Source: Pedobacter sp. ASV12 (GTDB taxonomy: Bacteria; Bacteroidota; Bacteroidia; Sphingobacteriales; Sphingobacteriaceae). From it: a stretch of DNA of 64,000 nt. The stretch spans positions 1-64,000 of the forward strand of contig NZ_JAELUC010000006.1 in the NCBI RefSeq assembly GCF_016429155.1. Reading direction: 5' to 3'. The position numbers were made by a program, and so were the translations under genes. Numbering within the stretch: position 1 is the stretch's first letter; each line of letters begins with the position of its first letter. Below are positions 37,377 through 46,953 of the stretch, in pieces. The notes beneath the pieces were generated by a model, which had not been told where the DNA came from, did no database searches, and saw nothing but the letters and a program-made list of their open reading frames with translations.

Positions 37377-37979
37377 CTACTTATGTCTCTTTTCCAGGTT
37401 AAGCCCGATGTCTGCGAGTGTTTTTCCTTTGGCTTTTAGTAAAACCAGGAGATGAAATACCAGGTCGGAGGCCTCGTTTATGAAATCTTCGTCGGTTTCG
37501 TTTAAGGCGGCGATAACCGTTTCTACACCCTCTTCGCCAACTTTTTGGGCAATTTTGTTAAGGCCTTTTTGGCGAAGCTTGTTTACATAAGATTCGGCGC
37601 TTGGGTTTTCAAAACGGTCTTTGATGATGTTTTCCAGCTCGAAAATAAAGTTCTGGTTGTAGGCGGTATTGAAACAGCTGCGGGTTCCGGTGTGGCAGGT
37701 TGGCCCAACCGGACTTGCCTTAATCAGCAAGGTGTCTTGATCGCAATCGGAAGCAATGGATTTGACGAAAAGAAAATTGCCACTCTCTTCGCCCTTGGTC
37801 CACAAACGGTTTTTGCTGCGCGAAAAGAAAGTAACCTTGCCTTCGGCCTGTGTTTTGGCTAAAGCTTCGGCATTCATGTAGCCCAGCATCAGCACTTCTA
37901 AAGTTTGCTCATCCTGGATCACTACAGGGATTAATCCATTTGTTTTTCCCCAGTCGAGGGAAGTTATGTTGTCTGTCAT
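37377..37979 (-). CDS. hisIE: bifunctional phosphoribosyl-AMP cyclohydrolase / phosphoribosyl-ATP pyrophosphatase
   Basis: 200 residues from MTDNITSLDWGK. The HisI part (about 1-110) contains the zinc-binding CHTGTRSCF and the GEESGNF segment; the HisE part (about 115-200) is helical with VGEEGVETVIAAL and ASDLVFHLLVLL. It catalyses steps 2 and 3 of histidine synthesis. An in-frame ATG 36 bases upstream exists, but the family starts near 37979. It is the last his gene in the operon. Confidence 0.95.
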   Translation of the reverse strand: MTDNITSLDWGKTNGLIPVVIQDEQTLEVLMLGYMNAEALAKTQAEGKVTFFSRSKNRLWTKGEESGNFLFVKSIASDCDQDTLLIKASPVGPTCHTGTRSCFNTAYNQNFIFELENIIKDRFENPSAESYVNKLRQKGLNKIAQKVGEEGVETVIAALNETDEDFINEASDLVFHLLVLLKAKGKTLADIGLNLEKRHK

Positions 37980-38024
37980 TTTGTTTGTCGTTTCGAGGTA
38001 TGAGGCCATCTTCACAATCTAGGC

Positions 38025-38819
38025 TTATAACCTTACCGGAATATCGTGTTTTTTTAATTCTTGTTTAAGATCTGGGATCAAAATCTCTCCGTAATGAAAA
38101 ACCGAAGCCGCCAAGGCTGCATCTACGCCCGCTTGTTGAAAAACCGTTGTAAAGTGCTCGATTTTTCCGGCGCCACCCGAGGCAATGATGGGGATGTTGA
38201 TCATTTTGTTGATTTTGTCCAACAAATCGCAGTCGAAGCCTTGCTTGGTGCCATCGTGGTCCATCGAAGTTAGTAGGATTTCGCCAGCGCCCAAATTCTC
38301 CGCTCTTTTAATCCAGTCTTCGGTTTCGAGTTCGGTCATTAACCGGCCTCCATTTAAGTGCACGCGGTTTTTGCCGTCGATGTGTTTGGTGTCTACCGCC
38401 AAAACTACAAACTGAACGCCAAAGGCCTTGGCCAAATCTTCAATCAGCTGGGGGTTGCGCACGGCGGCCGAATTGATGCTGATTTTATCGGCGCCAGCAT
38501 TGAGCAAGGCCTCCGCATCGGCAATTTCGCTGATGCCACCACCAATGGTAAAGGGGATGTTCAGTTGCCTAGCCACGGCTTTTACCATTTCGATCATGGT
38601 TTTGCGCCTTTCGTGGGTTGCGGTAATGTCTAGGAAAACCAGTTCATCAGCACCTTGCTGGGCATATTGCGCGGCCAGTTCAACGGGGTCGCCCGCATCG
38701 CGCAGGTCTACGAAGTTGACTCCCTTTACGGTACGTCCATCCTTTACATCAAGACAGGGGATTATTCTTTTGGATAAGCCGCCACTTGTTAGAGGGAGTT
38801 TTGTTGATTGCTTAATCAA
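38025..38819 (-). CDS. hisF: imidazole glycerol phosphate synthase, cyclase subunit
   Basis: 264 residues of the HisF (beta-alpha)8 barrel. Catalytic Asp residues are in [13 protein letters not shown] and LAVDTKH; the phosphate-binding [10 protein letters not shown] and IIASGGAG are present. Residues 1-14 ([14 protein letters not shown]) precede the usual start [10 protein letters not shown]; no ATG/GTG/TTG lies nearer, so this extension seems real. The first codons overlap the end of the small ORF by 8 bases. It works with HisH. Confidence 0.95.
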
Positions 38820-39048
38820 AATATTGTTGTTTAATGGAAGGTTTTATCCTTTTTCCGATACCAAGGCCTGTTAAAATTAGTCCAATTAGGATAGTAGGAA
38901 GCCATAAAAAGAAAGCATATTGACCTGTAACAGACATCAGCTGGGTACAATTTCCTTGATAAGTAAACATATAGGCTCCCCAAAAGAACATTGCAATACC
39001 CAAAAGCGCGATAAATATTCCTATTGTTAGCAGATTGATGAACTTCAT
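38812..39048 (-). CDS. small two-helix membrane protein within the his operon
   Basis: 78 residues: two hydrophobic segments, about 8-27 ([20 protein letters not shown]) and 46-65 ([20 protein letters not shown]), joined by a short loop with a Cys, and a basic tail. It lies between hisA and hisF and overlaps hisF by 8 bases, so translation is probably coupled. It is not a known histidine enzyme; function unknown. The overlap argues against a chance ORF. Confidence 0.7.
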
Positions 39049-39089
39049 AAAGGCGTAAAATTAGATTGCTTCTTTTCTTTCGATGACAT

Positions 39090-39839
39090 TTAGATAGAAC
39101 TAAGTGCTTTTAGGTTCCACTCCTTGATTTCTTCGATGCTGATATGGCCTTCGTAAATGGCTTTGCCCACCACCACGCTCCTGATGTCGAGCTGGGCCAG
39201 TTCCTTAATGTCGTCCATCGAACTTACGCCACCCGAAGCAATCAACTTAATGAAAGGGGAGTGGTCGAGCAGTTTTCTGTATAAATCGATGGCCGTGCCG
39301 CCTAGCTTGCCATCTTTGTTGATGTCGGTGCACAAAAACCTGAAAAAGCCCAATTGCAGACACTTGTCTACGTAATCCATCAATTTGATTGGCGAGCTTT
39401 CCATCCAGCCAGAATATTTGATGATTTCGTCCAGTACGTCGATAGCAATGACAATGCGGTTGGCATAATCGTCTTTTTTGGCAAAAGCAGCGCTTAGATT
39501 TGGCAGGAAATCGGGATTGCTTACGGCTTGCGTGCCCACAATGACCCGGTGTATGCCTGCATCCAACAAATTGGTAACCTGTTCAATGGTTCTGATGCCG
39601 CCGCCATATTGTACGCGCATTTCGGTTTTTTTGATGATGCTGAACAGGGTTTGCTGGTTGCTGAAATCGCCTTTTGCACCATTTAGATCGATGATGTGGA
39701 TGAAATCTGTACCGTTTGAACGGTAACGTTCGATCATTTCTTCGATAGAGACATCGTATTCTGTTTTCTGATTATAGTCGCCTTCGCGCAAGCGGACAAC
39801 TTTTCCGTCTAAAATATCGATTGCTGGGATAATGTACAT
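39090..39839 (-). CDS. hisA: ProFAR isomerase
   Basis: 249 residues, (beta-alpha)8 barrel, step 4 of histidine synthesis. Typical features are IPAIDILDGKVVRL with the catalytic Asp, YGGGIRTIEQV, GTQAVSNP, and the C-terminal IASGGVSSMDD and VVVGKAIYEG. It starts 1 base after the hisH stop, so the two are tightly coupled. Confidence 0.97.
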   Translation of the reverse strand: MYIIPAIDILDGKVVRLREGDYNQKTEYDVSIEEMIERYRSNGTDFIHIIDLNGAKGDFSNQQTLFSIIKKTEMRVQYGGGIRTIEQVTNLLDAGIHRVIVGTQAVSNPDFLPNLSAAFAKKDDYANRIVIAIDVLDEIIKYSGWMESSPIKLMDYVDKCLQLGFFRFLCTDINKDGKLGGTAIDLYRKLLDHSPFIKLIASGGVSSMDDIKELAQLDIRSVVVGKAIYEGHISIEEIKEWNLKALSSI

Positions 39840-39840
39840 G

Positions 39841-40434
39841 CTAGGATCTTAAATTTGAGAAATTTTTTAATAGGCGTTCTCCGGCTTCGCCCGATTTTTC
39901 GGGGTGAAACTGAACACCAAAGAAATTGTCTTTTTGTATAGCTGCCGAAAATTTGTTTCCATAATTTACAGAGGCGATATCAAAAATAGGGTTATATTCA
40001 ATAAAATAAGAATGTACAAAGTAAAACTGTGTTCCACTAGGAACATTCTCAAATAATAAATTGTTTTTAAAATCTACCGTATTCCAACCCATGTGCGGAA
40101 TTTTGATACCCAAGTTTTTGTCGAAAAGCTTGGTTTCCAAAGGCACGATGTCGAGTAGTTTGGCATCCCCTTCTTCAGAATGTGCGGTAAGTAGTTGCAT
40201 GCCTACGCAAATGCCAAGCACGGGTTTTCGTAATGCTTTAATCGCTTTGACCATGCCGGTTTGCTCGAGTTTGTGCATGGCCGTGCCCGCATGGCCTACT
40301 CCCGGGATGATGATATGCGTGTACTGGGCTAAATCTGCTTCGCTATTAACCATGCCGTAGGCAATTTGTTGCCGTTCTAAGGCTGCGGTAAGCGAGAAGA
40401 TGTTGCCTGCTCCATAGTTGATTATTCCGATCAT
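39841..40434 (-). CDS. hisH: imidazole glycerol phosphate synthase, glutaminase subunit
   Basis: 197-residue class I glutamine amidotransferase. The nucleophile Cys76 is in LGICVGMQLL, and the His-Glu pair is in FHPEKSGEAGE near the C-terminus; the oxyanion strand PGVGHAGTAM is also present. It supplies ammonia to HisF, here three genes away. A heptamer element separates it from hisB. Confidence 0.97.
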   Translation of the reverse strand: MIGIINYGAGNIFSLTAALERQQIAYGMVNSEADLAQYTHIIIPGVGHAGTAMHKLEQTGMVKAIKALRKPVLGICVGMQLLTAHSEEGDAKLLDIVPLETKLFDKNLGIKIPHMGWNTVDFKNNLLFENVPSGTQFYFVHSYFIEYNPIFDIASVNYGNKFSAAIQKDNFFGVQFHPEKSGEAGERLLKNFSNLRS

Positions 40435-40437
40435 TGT

Positions 40438-40517
40438 TTCAGTTGTCAGTTATTAGTTATCTGTTTTCCAGTTGGGGATCATGAATTCAAACCCCACAAC
40501 TGTCAACTCATAACTAC
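40438..40517 (-). repeat. inverted heptamer array between hisB and hisH
   Basis: Left units AGTTGTC, AGTTATT, AGTTATC (40441-40461) and AGTTGGG (40470-40476) face right units CAACTGT, CAACTCA, TAACTAC (40497-40517). The right half is of complementary type (GTTGGGG against CCCCAC in the centre), so a hairpin of some 30 imperfect pairs is possible. The last unit includes the hisB stop codon. Confidence 0.75.
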
Positions 40518-41647
40518 AATACGCCTTTAGTGCTTGGTAAGACCATTTTTTCGGCATCGCGTTTAATGGCCATTTTAATTGCCTTGGCAAAAGCCTTAAA
40601 AATAGCCTCTATTTTATGGTGCTCGTTATCGCCTTCGGCCTTAATGTTCAAATTGCATTTGGCGGCATCGCTGAAAGATTTGAAAAAATGGAAGAACATT
40701 TCCGTTGGCATGTCGCCCACTTTTTCGCGTTTAAAATCAGCTTCCCAAACCATCCAGCTGCGCCCGCCAAAATCAATGGCCACCTGGGCCAGGCAATCGT
40801 CCATCGGCAAACAGAATCCATAACGTTCAATTCCCAATTTATTGCCAATGGCCTTTGCAAAAGCCTCACCCAGTGCAATTCCGGTGTCTTCAATGGTGTG
40901 GTGCTCGTCAATATGCAGGTCGCCTTTGGCACTAATTTCGAGGTCCATGCCTCCGTGGCGGGCAATTTGATCTAACATGTGGTCGAAAAAGTGCAACCCG
41001 GTATGGATGTTTGCCTTTCCGGTGCCATCTAAATCAAGCTCAATGTTGATGTCGGTTTCGTTGGTTTTGCGTTGGTGGCTTACTTTTCTTGCCCCAGCCC
41101 TTAAAAAGGTATAGATGTCTTCCCAGTTTTTGGTTTCCAGGGCAATCACATCAGCCAAGCTTTCCAGTTTGTCCATTCCTTCGTTGGCACCCAAGGCATC
41201 GTTTTGGCGCAAGTAAATAGCTTTAGCGCCCAGGTTTTTGGCCAACAATACATCATTGAGCCTATCGCCGATGACGTAAGAGTTTGCGAGGTCGTAATCG
41301 CCAGTCAGGTATTTGCCCAACAAAGCCGTGCCTGGCTTACGGGTAGGGGCGTTGTCTCTGGCAAAGGTGCGGTCGATGACCACGTCGCTAAACACTACGC
41401 CTTCGCCTGCAAAAGTGTTGATCAGGAAATTATGCACCGGCCAGAAATTCTCTTCCGGATGGGACGAAGTGCCCAAACCGTCCTGGTTGGTAACCATTAC
41501 CAGTTCGAAATCGAGTTCATGGGCAATTTTAGCCAGGTAATACAGCGATTTTGGGTAAAACTGCAACTTGGCAAAGCTGTCTACCTGTTCATCTTCAGGC
41601 TCCAGGGCCAAAGTGCCGTCGCGGTCTATAAATAATACGTTTTTCAT
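40514..41647 (-). CDS. hisB: bifunctional histidinol-phosphatase / imidazoleglycerol-phosphate dehydratase
   Basis: 377 residues in two domains. The N-terminal HAD phosphatase (about 1-165) has FIDRDGTL with the catalytic Asp8 and Asp10. The C-terminal IGPD domain (about 185-377) has the metal-binding [14 protein letters not shown] and [14 protein letters not shown] histidines and a second repeat with [11 protein letters not shown]. The fused form is found in enterobacteria and many Bacteroidota. It performs steps 6 and 8. Confidence 0.96.
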
Positions 41648-41659
41648 AGTTCAATTTAA

Positions 41660-41805
41660 TTTTGAATGATGGCGTGATAGAATGATTGAATGACTGAATG
41701 ACTGAATGACTGAATGATTGAACGACTGAATGGTGGTCGAATGTATACATGCAATTATTCATGCATTCAAAATTCACTCACTCTTTCATTCATTCATTTT
41801 TCTCA
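41660..41805 (-). repeat. inverted octamer array between hisC and hisB
   Basis: Six consecutive 8-base units TGAATGAC (three exact, then TGAATGAT, TGAACGAC, TGAATGGT) run from 41687 to 41734, with looser units before them. The other side (41776-41800) reads ACTCACTCTTTCATTC and ATTCATT, the complementary type, and includes the hisC stop. This is the only member with an 8-base period. Confidence 0.75.
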
Positions 41806-42832
41806 ATAAATCTATTAATTGATCGTTTTCCGAGGCGGTGCCGATGGTGATCCTTAAGCAGCCTTCGCAAAGCGTAACCTTGGAACGGTCGCGCACAATA
41901 ACCCCTTGATCTACCAACTTGTTGTAAACATCAACGGCATTCGCTATTTCGGCCAGTATAAAATTGGCATCCGATGGGTAGACTTTTTTCACCATCGGTA
42001 TTTTAGCCAGTTCGGCACTCAGTCTTTCCCTTTCGGCAACGGTAATTTTAATCCATTCGTTCACCTGCTGGATATTTTCCAAAGCGGCCAAAGCCAAATC
42101 CTGGGTAGCCTGGTTGATGTTGTAGGGCGGTTTTACCTTGTTCAGGATGTCGATAACCGGACGCGACGAAAAGGCCATGCCCAAACGCAAGGCGGCCAGG
42201 CCCCAAGCTTTAGAAAAAGTTTGCAAGACCACCAGGTTTACGTATTCGGTCAGTTCCTGGATAAATGTTTTTTGCTTGGCAAAGTTGATGTAGGCCTCGT
42301 CAATCACCACCAAGCCTTTAAAGTTGGCTAAAATGGTTTCGATATCGGTTCTATTAAGCGAATTGCCGGTAGGGTTGTTAGGCGAGCAGATGAAGATCAT
42401 TTTGGTATTGGCATCGATGGTTTCTGCAATCTTCTCCAAATCGAGCTGGAAGTTAGGGAGCAAGTTTACCTTTCTTACCTCTACATCGTTAATGTTGGCC
42501 GATACTTCGTACATGCCATAGGTTGGAGGCAGGATAATGACATTGTCCTTGCCAGGATTGCAAAAAGCCCTGAACAACAAGTCGATGGCCTCGTCGCTGC
42601 CATTGCCCAAAAAAGTGTTTTCTATCGGAACGCCTTTGATTTTGCTGATGGCTTCCTTCAGATCCAGTTGCAAAGGGTCGGGGTAACGGTTGTAGTTGGC
42701 CGGTAGGGGCGAACCAAAACTGTTTTCGTTGGCATCTAAAAATACGCTGGCCTGGCCCTTAAATTCGTCCCTGGCTGTAGAGTAGGGGCGAAGTGTTTTT
42801 ATGTTTTCTCGTTGTAAGTCTTTAATGTCCAT
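41786..42832 (-). CDS. hisC: histidinol-phosphate aminotransferase
   Basis: 348-residue class I/II PLP aminotransferase. The PLP-binding lysine is in FSKAWGLAALRLG, the ICSPNNPTGN motif precedes it, and VIDEAYINF carries the PLP Asp; a C-terminal RITIGTASEND is typical for HisC. It catalyses step 7. The last codons and stop (ATGAATGAATGA) already belong to the octamer pattern. Confidence 0.96.
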   Translation of the reverse strand: MDIKDLQRENIKTLRPYSTARDEFKGQASVFLDANENSFGSPLPANYNRYPDPLQLDLKEAISKIKGVPIENTFLGNGSDEAIDLLFRAFCNPGKDNVIILPPTYGMYEVSANINDVEVRKVNLLPNFQLDLEKIAETIDANTKMIFICSPNNPTGNSLNRTDIETILANFKGLVVIDEAYINFAKQKTFIQELTEYVNLVVLQTFSKAWGLAALRLGMAFSSRPVIDILNKVKPPYNINQATQDLALAALENIQQVNEWIKITVAERERLSAELAKIPMVKKVYPSDANFILAEIANAVDVYNKLVDQGVIVRDRSKVTLCEGCLRITIGTASENDQLIDLLRKMNE

Positions 42833-42886
42833 TTTTTGTTGGAGTTAACTGCGAAGCAAAGGTTTCGCAAGCACAAAAGTTGATGT

Positions 42887-44179
42887 TTATGGATTCTTAA
42901 TTTTTTCTAACCTGATGGTAACGGCGTTTTTATGGGCCTGCAGGCCTTCGGCTTCGGCCAGGCTTTCTACCGTTTGGCCGATGTTAGCCAAGCCTTGTTG
43001 GCTCAGGTGCTGGAAAGTGATTTTTTTGAGGAAAGTATCGACCGAAACACCGGAAAAAGCTTTGGCAAAACCGCTTGTTGGCAAGGTGTGATTAGTGCCT
43101 GAGGCATAATCGCCTGCACTTTCGGGTGTTAGGTTGCCCAAAAATACCGAACCTGCATTAACGATTAATGGAATCAGCGCTTCGAAGTTTTCTGTGGCCA
43201 AAATCAGGTGCTCCGGTGCGTAGGCATTGCTAAAAGCCATGGCTTCCTCCAAGGTCTCTGCAAGAACTGCATAGGAATTGGCGATGGCTTGTGTGGCAAT
43301 ATCCCGACGAGGCAAATCGGCCAGCTGCTGTTCGATGGCGATTAACGTTGCATTGATCAGGTCTTTCGAGGTGCTCACCAATATCGCCTGGCTATCGGGG
43401 CCATGCTCGGCCTGTGCCAGCAGATCGGCCGCCACAAAGCTGGAGTTGGCCGTTTCATCGGCAATCACCAAAACCTCCGATGGTCCGGCAGGCATGTCGA
43501 TAGCCACTAGGTTTTGCAGTTGCTTTTTGGCTTCGGTTACATAGCGATTTCCAGGTCCGAAGATCTTGCTCACTTTGGGTATGCTCGCCGTGCCATAAGC
43601 CATGGCGGCCACGGCTTGCGCGCCTCCGGCCAAGTAGATTTTTTCAATGCCCAAGCGCATGGCCACATAGGCCAGATAGGTATTTACCTTGCCGTCGTTT
43701 TGTGGTGGCGAGCATACAATAATTTCGTGGCATCCGGCAATTTTTGCAGGGATGCCCAGCATTAAAAAAGTACTCGGCAATACTGCTGTTCCACCCGGAA
43801 TATACAGACCAACACGCTCAATAGGGCGGGCTTCTCGCCAGCAGTTTACGCCAGGCATGGTTTCTATTTTGGCTTCGGTTTTGAGTTGGGCCTGGTGAAA
43901 TTTGTAGATGTTTTGGTAAGCGACGTCAATGGCATTTTTTACCGGTTGGGGAATGGCTTTTGCCAAGGTATCGAGTTCCTCCTTACCGATGTAAAGTTGT
44001 TCCAGCTTTACTTTGTCGAATTGCGAAGCAAAGGCCTTCAGGGCATTATCACCTTCGTTTTTTACCGTAGCTATAATGTCTTTTACGCGTGTTTCGACCA
44101 ACTGATCGTCGGCAATCTGCCTGGAACAAATTTCTTCTATTTTTTGTTGAGATAAATCTCTATAACTATAGATTTTCAA
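42887..44179 (-). CDS. hisD: histidinol dehydrogenase
   Basis: 430 residues, zinc-dependent NAD enzyme for the last two steps. Typical motifs are ERVGLYIPGGTA, IFGPGNRYVTEAK, MPAGPSEVLVIAD, the zinc ligands in QAEHGPDSQA and the catalytic region APEHLIL. The start codon is TTG (44179-44177); no ATG is in frame nearby upstream. Confidence 0.96.
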   Translation of the reverse strand: MKIYSYRDLSQQKIEEICSRQIADDQLVETRVKDIIATVKNEGDNALKAFASQFDKVKLEQLYIGKEELDTLAKAIPQPVKNAIDVAYQNIYKFHQAQLKTEAKIETMPGVNCWREARPIERVGLYIPGGTAVLPSTFLMLGIPAKIAGCHEIIVCSPPQNDGKVNTYLAYVAMRLGIEKIYLAGGAQAVAAMAYGTASIPKVSKIFGPGNRYVTEAKKQLQNLVAIDMPAGPSEVLVIADETANSSFVAADLLAQAEHGPDSQAILVSTSKDLINATLIAIEQQLADLPRRDIATQAIANSYAVLAETLEEAMAFSNAYAPEHLILATENFEALIPLIVNAGSVFLGNLTPESAGDYASGTNHTLPTSGFAKAFSGVSVDTFLKKITFQHLSQQGLANIGQTVESLAEAEGLQAHKNAVTIRLEKIKNP

Positions 44180-44249: not shown

Positions 44250-45101
44250 TTACGTTATGATTTTCTCGATGGGCATTACCACGATGCCTTGTGCACCTGC
44301 CGCTTTGAGGCTGTTGATCTTTTCCCAAAAATCCTGCTCGGCAATAACCGAATGAACAGCTACCCAGCCTTCTTCAAACAAGGGAACAACGGTAGGACTT
44401 TTTACGCCTGGCAATAAATCTACAACGGCTTGCAGGTTTTCTTTGCTCACGTTGAGCACCACATATTTGGTGGCTTTGGCGCGCAGCACCGATTGGATCC
44501 GCTGCACCAATTCTTTCACTTCGGCATTGAATTCGATCTCTTTGTTGCCAATCAAAACAGCCTCCGAATTCATCACGTCCTTGAAGGGTTTCAGGCCGTT
44601 GCTCTTTAAAGTTCCACCAGTAGAAACGATGTCGAAAATGGCATCGCTCAAGCCCAAGCCCGGACCAATTTCTACCGAGCCCGAAATGTTTCTGATCTGC
44701 GCATCAACGTTGTTGGCCTTCAGGTATTTTTCGAGAATTACCGGATAAGAAGTGGCGATTGCCTTGCCGTTTAATTGGGCCAGTTCGGTGATGTCGCTCG
44801 TGCTCTGCACGGCGATTTTTAGGGTGCATTTGCCAAAGCCGAGCTTCTGCAGGTAACAAACGTCGGCACCTGCTTCTACAATTACATTTTCACCCACAAT
44901 GCCCAAATCGGCAATGCCGTCCTGCACATATTCTGGAATATCGTCGTCTCTCAGGAAAAGGATTTCCAAAGGAAAATTAGTGACTGTTGAGATGAGGGAA
45001 CTTTTGTAGTTTTCGAAAGATAAACCACAATTTTTAAGGATTTCTACTGATTTTTCGTTGAGCCTACCCGATTTTTGGATAGCGATTTTAAGTGTTTTCA
45101 C
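44250..45101 (-). CDS. hisG: ATP phosphoribosyltransferase, long form
   Basis: 283 residues, the long form with its own C-terminal regulatory (ACT-like) domain (about 210-283), so feedback inhibition by histidine is likely without HisZ. The catalytic part shows LKIAIQKSGRLNEKS, LGIVGENVI and the PRPP-binding segment VSTGGTLKSNGL. The start codon is GTG. First structural gene of the operon, 70 bases after the leader peptide. Confidence 0.96.
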   Translation of the reverse strand: MKTLKIAIQKSGRLNEKSVEILKNCGLSFENYKSSLISTVTNFPLEILFLRDDDIPEYVQDGIADLGIVGENVIVEAGADVCYLQKLGFGKCTLKIAVQSTSDITELAQLNGKAIATSYPVILEKYLKANNVDAQIRNISGSVEIGPGLGLSDAIFDIVSTGGTLKSNGLKPFKDVMNSEAVLIGNKEIEFNAEVKELVQRIQSVLRAKATKYVVLNVSKENLQAVVDLLPGVKSPTVVPLFEEGWVAVHSVIAEQDFWEKINSLKAAGAQGIVVMPIEKIIT

Positions 45102-45142
45102 TTGTTATAAAATTAGGAATAAGAAATATGGAGTCTATTGTT

Positions 45143-45165
45143 AAAAACCGTTTTGCGTACAAAAC
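45143..45165 (-). terminator. his attenuator terminator hairpin
   Basis: On the minus strand, GTTTTG (45165-45160) pairs with CAAAAC (45155-45150) around TACG, then GG and five T follow. It lies 7 bases past the leader stop and 41 bases before hisG. The stem is only 6 bp, so it is a modest terminator. Confidence 0.7.
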
Positions 45166-45171
45166 ATTTAT

Positions 45172-45234
45172 CTATCTATCGCCGTAATGGCGATGATGAT
45201 GTAAATGTGCATAATGGTTTAAAACTTGGATCAT
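45172..45234 (-). CDS. hisL: histidine operon leader peptide
   Basis: Twenty codons from ATG (45234-45232) to TAG (45174-45172), reading MIQVLNHYAH then LHHHRHYGDR: six His codons within ten positions (7, 10, 12, 13, 14, 16). A GGAAAG ribosome site is about 10 bases upstream. A perfect hairpin, ATCGCC / GGCGAT with a 5-base loop (45178-45194), overlaps the end of the frame and may act as pause structure. A terminator hairpin follows. The whole arrangement is a classical amino acid attenuator: stalling at His codons would favour readthrough into hisG. Confidence 0.88.
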   Translation of the reverse strand: MIQVLNHYAHLHHHRHYGDR

Positions 45235-45273
45235 ATATTACTTTCTTTCCGTAATTTTGGCCAGAAGATGTTG

Positions 45274-45302
45274 CAAATATAACTTTGTAAATGTGAAATC
45301 AA
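45274..45302 (-). promoter_or_regulatory. promoter of the his operon
   Basis: On the minus strand, TTG (45302-45300) and TATATTTG (45281-45274) are 18 bases apart, matching the Bacteroidota sigma-A consensus (TTG, about 19, TAnnTTTG). Transcription would start about 30 bases before the leader ATG. Confidence 0.75.
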
Positions 45303-45351: not shown

Positions 45352-46953
45352 ATGATACTTAAACCTCACAGAAAATTGAAAAAAACGCTCCTATTTGTAG
45401 CCGTATGTTTGTTTTTGAGCTCTTGCAGCTGGTTTCGCACCAAGCCTGAGATTGCCGTTGTTTTGTCTAAACATTTCGACAATAAACTATACAATGATTT
45501 TGATACGGTTGCTTATGATTCGGTATTCGTCAAAAAAATGGACGAACTGAGCAGTAAATTGTCCAACCCCAAAGTAATCAAGGCATATTACGCGCATCAC
45601 CAAGACCGGCCGTTGCTGGTTACGCGTTTTTATGTAAACGGTGCACTGGATACCTTGAAAAGTTACATCCAGCGAAGCAAAGCCGATGGGTTTAATCCCG
45701 AAATATTCAGGGTAAATGAACTGGAAACCCTTTTGCAAACCCTTGATGCGAACAAATTCAAAAAGATAAGCGAGGTTTATCCTTTAATAGCCGATCTGGA
45801 AATCAAGGCTGCCGATGCCCTTTTAAAGTACAGCACCTTCATCAAATACGGCAGCGTAAATCCCAGGAAGCTGTTTAACCGCTATTACATTGCCAGTAAA
45901 CGACCAGATAGCCTGAAGCTCGATTCGATGTTGAATACCACGGATCTGGTTGCTATATTGAAAGATGCGCAGCAGACTTCAAAAAATTACCTCGACCTGA
46001 AAAGGGCCTTGGCGCTTTACCGCGACAGCTTGGGTACCGACGAAAATCCGGCCATCAAAGCCATCAAGCTCAACATGGAGCGCATGCGTTGGCAACTGCC
46101 GGTCAAAACCGAGGAAACCGTGTTGGTCAATATCCCCGATTTCTCGCTAACCTGGTTTAAGGGCCAAGATACCTTAACGCACATGAACGTATGTGTTGGC
46201 GGTAAGCGCGAAGAAGGCTATGCCGATAAAATGAAGGCTTACTTAAAGTCTAAAAATTTAGACGACAAGCCCAAAAACCACGAAACGCCACAACTGGTGA
46301 GCGTATTTAATGCCATACAGGTAAATCCGGTTTGGAATATTCCGGTAAGCATTGCGCAGAGCGAAATTTATTGGCAGGCGGTTAGAGACCCTTATTACCT
46401 GTCTAACAACAACATTAAGGTATACCTGAAAGGCAAACTGGTAAATGATCCGGATACCATCCAATGGAATAAATACTCGCGCGAGAAATTGCCTTTTCAA
46501 TTTAAGCAAGGCTCAGGCGAAGGCAATGCCTTGGGCAAGTTCAAATTCATTTTCGACAACAGTTCAAGCATTTACCTTCACGATACCAACAACAAAAATG
46601 GTTTTAGGCTGGCCAACAGGGCAATCAGCCATGGTTGTGTGCGTATTGAAAAGCCGCTCGAGTTTGCACAGCTGATGGTGAGAGACAAATACCAGTACGA
46701 CCAGTTGCGCATGGAGGTGAACCTGCCGCCGGTTGATACCACCAGGATGAAGCAGTATCAGAAAAAACTGGCTAAAAGAACCGATACGCTCAATACCTTC
46801 CAATTGAAGCCAAGCTGGTTCGCTACTCGGAAAAACGTGGCCGTGGTAATTGGCTATTTTACCGCTTGGGCCGAAAACGGCAAGGTTCAGTTCAGACCCG
46901 ATGTTTACGATTACGACGAAACTTTGTGGGAAGCCATTAAAAAATACATGTAG
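45352..46953 (+). CDS. L,D-transpeptidase (YkuD family), lipoprotein
   Basis: 533 residues, long form with an N-terminal lipoprotein signal (FVAVCLFLSSC), a helical scaffold of about 250 residues, then a YkuD catalytic domain. The active-site motif SHGCVRIE has the nucleophilic Cys near residue 431, preceded by the conserved GKFKFIF and SIYLHDTN segments. It resembles the YcbB/LdtD class, which makes 3-3 peptidoglycan crosslinks or anchors proteins. Divergent from the his operon. Confidence 0.92.
   Translation: MILKPHRKLKKTLLFVAVCLFLSSCSWFRTKPEIAVVLSKHFDNKLYNDFDTVAYDSVFVKKMDELSSKLSNPKVIKAYYAHHQDRPLLVTRFYVNGALDTLKSYIQRSKADGFNPEIFRVNELETLLQTLDANKFKKISEVYPLIADLEIKAADALLKYSTFIKYGSVNPRKLFNRYYIASKRPDSLKLDSMLNTTDLVAILKDAQQTSKNYLDLKRALALYRDSLGTDENPAIKAIKLNMERMRWQLPVKTEETVLVNIPDFSLTWFKGQDTLTHMNVCVGGKREEGYADKMKAYLKSKNLDDKPKNHETPQLVSVFNAIQVNPVWNIPVSIAQSEIYWQAVRDPYYLSNNNIKVYLKGKLVNDPDTIQWNKYSREKLPFQFKQGSGEGNALGKFKFIFDNSSSIYLHDTNNKNGFRLANRAISHGCVRIEKPLEFAQLMVRDKYQYDQLRMEVNLPPVDTTRMKQYQKKLAKRTDTLNTFQLKPSWFATRKNVAVVIGYFTAWAENGKVQFRPDVYDYDETLWEAIKKYM

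Follow-up and report, generated by a model that had tools for sequence, protein, structure and literature searches.

The enterobacterial his attenuator (hisL; Rfam family His_leader, RF00514) has a short His-rich open reading frame (ORF) ahead of hisG, and the position of the ribosome on this ORF picks the RNA fold. The locus described here, ahead of hisG in Pedobacter sp. ASV12, appears to share both properties. Unlike hisL, it belongs to a family (Sphingobacteriaceae) in which we found no strong terminator after the leader, and a putative long-range helix, P1, joins its leader and hisG start regions. It also resembles translational attenuators of the erm type (ermB, ermC), in which a stalled leader ribosome refolds the RNA and frees the start of the next gene; the erm stall is caused by a drug, whereas here it would be caused by lack of histidyl-tRNA. 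The actinobacterial LEU element, an amino-acid leader proposed to control translation, differs from the his leader in amino acid, fold, and phylum. The comparative work of Lopatovskaya et al. (2010) on attenuation may also take in Bacteroidetes.

Within the Bacteroidota, excerpts of a study of Flavobacterium psychrophilum describe strong hints that leader peptides attenuate amino-acid operons, as well as a structured 5' element without an Rfam hit before hisG in this species and other Flavobacteriaceae (PMC9723704). This element shares gene and phylum with ours, but those excerpts describe neither a His-codon leader nor a helix anatomy (PMC9723704). A map of Bacteroides thetaiotaomicron mentions short ORFs reminiscent of leader peptides (PMC7366714), and the word "leader" is absent from the main text of a survey of his genes in the superphylum (PMC8305728). 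Sensing of histidyl-tRNA by a leader peptide is classical, and the F. psychrophilum excerpts already suggest leader attenuation for a flavobacterium (PMC9723704). As far as the literature searched goes, what is new is the spread of the leader in the sampled Bacteroidota, with no Rfam match in the sequences scanned, and, in one family that kept the sensor, an apparent change of output in which masking of the start site takes the place of the terminator. The literature searches covered mainly non-subscription papers; neither a his leader from Sphingobacteriaceae nor a helix between a leader and the hisG start appeared among the matches listed. Rfam gave no match at gathering score in our sequence, nor in 15 relatives scanned; the five hits under E 10 in our sequence were to snoRNA and miRNA models far below their gathering scores, and His_leader was not among them.

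The window, by which we mean the whole stretch of DNA analyzed, is 64,000 nucleotides long, and all positions below refer to it. The parts of the leader locus and the surrounding genes are as follows.

45352-46953, divergent, across the gap from the leader: L,D-transpeptidase-like gene (NCBIfam match below cut-off)
45274..45302, minus strand: promoter, from sequence (TTG at 45302-45300, 18-bp spacer, TATATTTG at 45281-45274)
45241..45259, minus strand: X, putative 5' partner in the long-range helix P1, covering the region where leader translation starts; predicted to form a duplex with Y
45250-45245, minus strand: ribosome site GGAAAG, from sequence
45172..45234, minus strand: leader ORF MIQVLNHYAHLHHHRHYGDR and stop codon, 63 nt, 20 codons, from sequence and conservation
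45208..45221, minus strand: 5' strand of helix H1, leader codons 5-9, from folding and family co-variation
45178..45194, minus strand: hairpin A, ATCGCC-ATTAC-GGCGAT, perfect 6 bp, over the last leader codons
45150..45165, minus strand: hairpin B, GTTTTG-TACG-CAAAAC, dG -2.5, the proposed starvation-state hairpin
45144..45157, minus strand: 3' strand of helix H1, overlapping the 3' arm of hairpin B and most of the T-run
45147-45143, minus strand: T-run TTTTT, preceded by GG, 3' of hairpin B, from sequence
45108..45127, minus strand: Y, putative 3' partner in helix P1, at -26 to -7 relative to the hisG start
44250..45101, minus strand: hisG, GTG start (TIGR00070, TIGR03455)
37377..44179, minus strand: remainder of the his operon, whose order is hisG-D-C-B-H-A-F-IE, hisG first
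44179-42887, minus strand: hisD, his operon
42832-41786, minus strand: hisC, his operon
41647-40514, minus strand: hisB, his operon
40434-39841, minus strand: hisH, his operon
39839-39090, minus strand: hisA, his operon
38819-38025, minus strand: hisF, his operon
38015-37377, minus strand: hisIE, his operon

A first-pass annotation of this DNA had placed upstream of hisG a 20-codon minus-strand peptide with six His in ten positions, a GGAAAG ribosome site, a Bacteroidota promoter (TTG, 18 bases, TATATTTG), and a perfect 6-bp hairpin overlapping the end of the peptide. All four are present, the hairpin (ATCGCC/GGCGAT) at 45194-45178, with His at leader codons 7, 10, 12, 13, 14, and 16. The TAnnTTTG motif of the promoter recurs in 148/155 family upstream regions, versus 71/775 shuffles, at a median start of -45 from the leader ATG; transcription would be expected to begin near 45267 on the minus strand. 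The annotation had also described a second hairpin followed by a T-run. Both exist, but GG separates the T-run from hairpin B, and three of its five T's (45147-45145) are paired with leader codons 5-6 in the predicted minimum-energy fold; the T-run of the window would therefore make a poor terminator tail. The folding energy of the window leader lies 4.4 standard deviations below that of shuffles, and the mean folding z was -3.2, which we count toward the explanation favored below. The nearest named relatives of the window HisG are from Pedobacter (P. planticolens, 91%; P. namyangjuensis, 90%). Farther down the operon, the gap between hisA and hisF (38820-39089, approximately 270 bp) exceeds the other operon gaps, and the ORF list shows nothing convincing there.

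The annotation had asked whether the His codons are conserved in related genomes, and they are. We scored as a leader any ORF of ≤60 codons with at least four His in 10 residues and lying ≤300 nt from hisG. After removal of six duplicate upstream regions, a leader preceded hisG in 45/45 distinct upstream regions from the genus, 129/133 from the family (Sphingobacteriaceae: Pedobacter, Mucilaginibacter, Sphingobacterium, Olivibacter, Daejeonella, and others), and 167/193 overall. In the first 30 loci of the same genus, our own included, every hisG has a His-rich ORF, whose ATG lies 124-133 nt before hisG. A count that kept duplicates found leaders in 116/139 hisG upstream regions, compared to 0/139 when the reverse strand was scored and an average of 0.9/139 across ten shuffled sets, so that a chance His-rich ORF without function is refuted by conservation, and we put its probability at virtually nil. 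Leaders were found in 69 of 80 named records; among the 11 misses, L257 has just 34 nt of upstream sequence. The threshold undercounts, since L275 and L262 have three-His leaders ahead of terminator-like hairpins. No leader qualified upstream of 13 distant HisG types (25-35% identity; L127, L129-L133, L135-L137, L139-L142), in a comparison that omits three further distant-HisG upstream regions without an alignment (L128, L134, L138). Beyond the family, we sampled genomes both of the same class and of other classes in the phylum, and what we say of them applies to a sample of the phylum, not to a class. Their leader peptides have little in common beyond the His run (for example, MTFIQLHHHHHHICTQAN, MKKHLHIHHHAVPQG, and MENISRNIEFLANAQHAHMLHHFHHSS). 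Both His codons are used in 155 family leaders (CAT, 627; CAC, 228). A short ORF of His codons before the first his gene fits ribosome-mediated amino-acid attenuators of the general kind, and, from sequence comparison, the leader almost certainly senses histidine.

Outside the family, many leaders appear to act through a terminator, which we call strong if its hairpin reaches dG -8 kcal/mol or better and a U-tract follows with no gap (hairpins of up to 36 nt were scored). The outside-family set began with 136 distinct upstream regions; 43 had no leader by our threshold and 4 had a leader too near the end of the stretch. Of the 89 remaining leaders, 48 are followed by a strong terminator, and a smaller outside-family set gave 75% of 51, versus 3% of shuffles. 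Named cases include Fulvivirga lutimaris (L261) and several metagenome-assembled genomes related to Chitinophagaceae (L267, L271, L272, L277, L281). RNA after the last His codon pairs and co-varies with the 5' arm of the terminator (z -9.5; 0/5000 permutations; reversed control z +0.7), in a test of 46 of the 48 terminator leaders with close relatives retained. Judged by sequence, this is the layout of ribosome-mediated transcription attenuation. Such ribosome-controlled terminators would mean that transcription and translation in this phylum are coupled closely enough that a ribosome can steer RNA polymerase. The other 41 of the 89 leaders have no strong terminator, including 17 of the 18 leaders with HHSS in the peptide.

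Of the enterobacterial layout proposed by the annotation, the conserved His leader is present in the family, and the full layout is present in many leaders outside it, but a strong terminator directly before a U-tract was found in 0/152 family leaders (46 from the genus and 106 others). An earlier count with 60 of the other family leaders sampled gave 0/112. When a gap of up to 3 nt was allowed, hairpins of dG -8 appeared in 4/46 genus leaders and 0/106 other family leaders. Weaker hairpins are common in the genus: one of dG -2 or better lies directly before a U-tract in 33/46 genus leaders, and a U-rich tract begins 0-3 nt after hairpin B in 50 of the 57 genus leaders in which this hairpin was located (17/88 in other family leaders); because of this tract, transcription may still terminate early near 45145. 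Weak hairpins preceding a U-tract also occur in 63% of a largely Pedobacter class, compared to 18% in shuffles; this "Pedobacter-type" class was set by peptide motif and includes some Mucilaginibacter leaders, and was later recounted by genus. We rejected hairpin B itself as a strong terminator: its stem is weak (dG -2.5 in the window; family median, -2.9; range, -0.4 to -6.8), it is favored by stalling, and the T-run is offset.

These observations bear on whether transcription attenuation operates in Pedobacter too. A longer rod (hairpin A with extensions up to H1) and the U-tract might together be the terminator, hairpin B the antiterminator, and P1 a structure of readthrough RNA only. The U-rich tract in 50/57 genus leaders, the 63% of weak hairpins before a U-tract, and the four genus leaders that reach dG -8 with a gap all speak for such a rod, as do the promotion of hairpin B by stalling and the use of terminators with co-varying antiterminators by many leaders outside the family. 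We nevertheless judge it unlikely, while giving it more weight than the other alternatives below: 0/152 family leaders reach dG -8 directly before a U-tract (a count confined to hairpins of ≤36 nt, shorter than the long rod), the U-tract occurs in just 17/88 other family leaders, the T-run in the window is offset by GG with three of five T's paired within the rod itself, and P1 at the hisG start is left unexplained.

What the family leaders share instead of a strong terminator is a set of paired strands whose partners appear to depend on ribosome position. RNAalifold on group alignments recovered hairpin A and/or hairpin B only, and the P1 and H1 pairings shift in register from one species to another; for these reasons, we used partner-swapping tests, in which z describes own pairs relative to pairs swapped between species. 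H1 co-varied over the family (z -7.3; reversed, -1.6; 42 representatives), with strands that are altered yet complementary (GCUUUAC/GUGAAGC, ACUCGC/GCGAG, UUUGAA/UUCAAA). Within Pedobacter alone, H1 was not resolved (z -2.0 versus -1.5 reversed), and it is weak in the Mucilaginibacter-like leaders L057, L058, L164, L174, and L247. Hairpin A co-varied at z -3.9 (reversed control, -1.0). The stem of hairpin B gave z -8.1, but its reversed control was also high, at -4.2; relatedness inflates these values, as seen in the reversed controls of this stem and of P1 (-2.7).

Hairpin B and H1 have a 3' strand in common, and two mutually exclusive folds, chosen by ribosome position, are predicted. Averaged over 41 folded representatives, the hairpin B score rose from 0.24 without a ribosome to 0.95-1.00 when one occupied the first His codon; it was 0.86 when the ribosome had reached the last His codon and fell to 0.09-0.13 once it stood at the stop codon. 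In L005 (0.82) and L058 (0.74), hairpin B forms already in free RNA, and folding shows no switch there. Starvation should favor hairpin B according to these models. Hairpin B would thus form on stalling at the His codons, which is the wrong sign for a his-type terminator. We also considered pairing between the leader codons HHVH and the hairpin B loop, seen in several leaders (L041, L092, L102, L147), and rejected it as a common switch since it is broken where V is replaced.

Evidence for an output at the hisG start comes from P1. From the 155 distinct family leaders used (leader found; stop-to-start distance, ≤100 nt), we drew 43 representatives. X:Y duplexes averaged -10.0 kcal/mol for own pairs and -7.2 for pairs swapped between species, and 0/20000 permutations were as low as the own pairs. 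The signal was located to X(-40..-1) with Y(-30..-10) (z -8.5) and X(-20..0) with Y(-45..-1) (z -7.5); with fixed segments, z was -7.7, compared to -2.7 with Y reversed. In the same 43 representatives, X gave no signal with hisG +1..+45, with the leader ORF, or with the 35 nt after the leader stop. Pedobacter alone (17 representatives) gave z -4.4, with a reversed control of +0.7. Combined by Fisher's method over 43 representatives treated as independent, p was 2.6e-11, versus 0.96 for the promoter segment with Y. Leader by leader, p was <0.05 in 13/43 representatives and 0.08 in the window; P1 had no individual support (p >0.4) in L053, L057, L083, L102, L164, L174, L191, and L193.

An open map of 345 segment pairs in 41 representatives placed P1 in a larger structure. 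It omits two of the 43 (hairpin B was not located in L083 and L086), hairpin B is misplaced in L004, and the spread of all z values is 1.7, so that moderate values carry little meaning. The strongest hits were an antiparallel chain of couplings, which runs from -21 with hisG -21 and -14 with hisG -28, through -7 and 0 with a stretch 14 nt after the hairpin B loop and +7 with the loop and 3' arm of hairpin B (z -7.6), to +14 with +56. Chained together, these couplings would form one long rod. In folded free RNA, the unpaired fraction of Y(-25..-8) averaged 0.44 and was 0.15 in the window, and the hisG start region is thus predicted to be sequestered in a leader helix, as a translational attenuator needs. 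We examined 155 family hisG starts and found UUG or GUG in 153; weak start codons seem to be kept across the family, and masking of the start site could therefore matter.

The same P1 test outside the family gave z -1.0 in the terminator clades (37 representatives) and -1.6 in terminator-less leaders (31 representatives). The leaders we sampled there thus differ from the P1 design: they have a terminator or neither device, and no significant P1 signal. There is a broader reading that we hold tentatively, giving it somewhat less than even credence. The Sphingobacteriaceae may have replaced the terminator of a his attenuator common across the phylum with a terminator-less switch, in which one helix would join the leader and hisG ribosome-binding regions, the fully folded leader would silence both, and each new mRNA would be judged by its first leader ribosome; an amino-acid operon would then be under translational attenuation.

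P1 also bears on a simpler role for the leader, which would merely raise or set basal translation, through reinitiation or stability of the mRNA 5' end, and sense no histidine. P1 lies near the predicted 5' end, and reinitiation has been proposed for leader genes near start codons (PMC4833913). Such a role does not account for dense His codons that persist throughout the phylum sample in otherwise variable peptides, nor for a co-varying antiterminator beside the His codons of terminator leaders, and we consider it very improbable.

We lean, a little more than evenly, toward control of the his operon in Sphingobacteriaceae by a ribosome-mediated attenuator whose output is the hisG translation start. 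Slow or fast translation of the leader probably refolds the mRNA and so turns the his pathway on or off. The sensor is almost certainly the His-rich leader peptide, and conservation of its ORF and His codons is well supported by comparison. In the free leader, P1 and H1 (codons 2-8 with the hairpin B 3' arm, family-wide) would build a rod covering both start sites. A ribosome waiting at the first His codon would cover the 5' strand of H1, which in folding allows hairpin B to form and disrupts the rod. When histidine is plentiful, the first ribosome would complete the peptide and leave, the rod would close, and hisG would be barely translated; Rho-dependent polarity might then lower expression of the entire operon. 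When histidine is scarce, the stalled ribosome would keep P1 from forming until other ribosomes have had time to load on hisG.

The weak link in this model is release itself, because folding alone does not predict that hisG is freed on stalling. When P1 was able to close around the stalled ribosome, Y was unpaired at 0.45, compared to 0.44 in free RNA, and 9.4 of 11.1 expected X:Y pairs persisted; these pairs fell to 1.07 only when a ribosome was initiating at the leader. Under the assumption that the ribosome holds the two strands apart, Y becomes unpaired at 0.65, and equally at 0.65 with a ribosome at the stop codon. The -15..+3 region of hisG was nearly constant in every state (0.60-0.63). 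Kinetics would have to carry the output: a stalled first ribosome would hold the leader open while hisG is first exposed.

Rho may also enter in a different way. The RNA between hairpin B and hisG, rich in C and U and poor in G, might serve as a Rho loading site once the leader ribosome is gone, and a CCCC- and U-rich stretch follows hairpin B in a number of family leaders. We find Rho-dependent attenuation improbable, given that the C-rich stretch is short and may instead represent an internal loop within the rod; it could act jointly with the translational switch.

Our survey turned up other leaders. A group with FHHSS at or next to the peptide end, a variable N terminus, and mostly no terminator includes L061, L064, L076, L287, L288, and L297, with Pontibacter (L274) and Marivirga (L265, L266) as named members; in L061, a hairpin (UUCCUC/GAGGAA) spans the stop codon. 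In nine leaders from an order we guess to be Bacteroidales (L120, L122, L125, L126, L313, L314, L336, L339, L340), His residues are scattered along much of the peptide, and there is no terminator; by our threshold, six of these nine start with GTG. One locus labeled as flavobacterial (L206; JASCOD010000003.1, "Flavobacteriaceae bacterium PS02338") encodes a HisG 88% identical to that of the window and has a Pedobacter-type leader; it is probably a mislabeled Pedobacter.

The window's own genome also has short ORFs before other amino-acid genes. At L342 (C367), the Tyr/Phe-rich ORF MNLTTTYWFGYFYYFSKSRD occupies -64 to -1 before the first ATG of a prephenate dehydratase frame, and this ORF, ahead of a pheA-type gene, is likely an aromatic leader peptide. 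Similarly, at L345 (C363), the Ile-rich ORF MFVFNVNNDMNLITNIISNIIIVISSTRGGIRCV occupies -196 to -91 before the first ATG of an ilvD frame and is likely a branched-chain leader peptide. This Pedobacter genome may use a set of amino-acid leaders.
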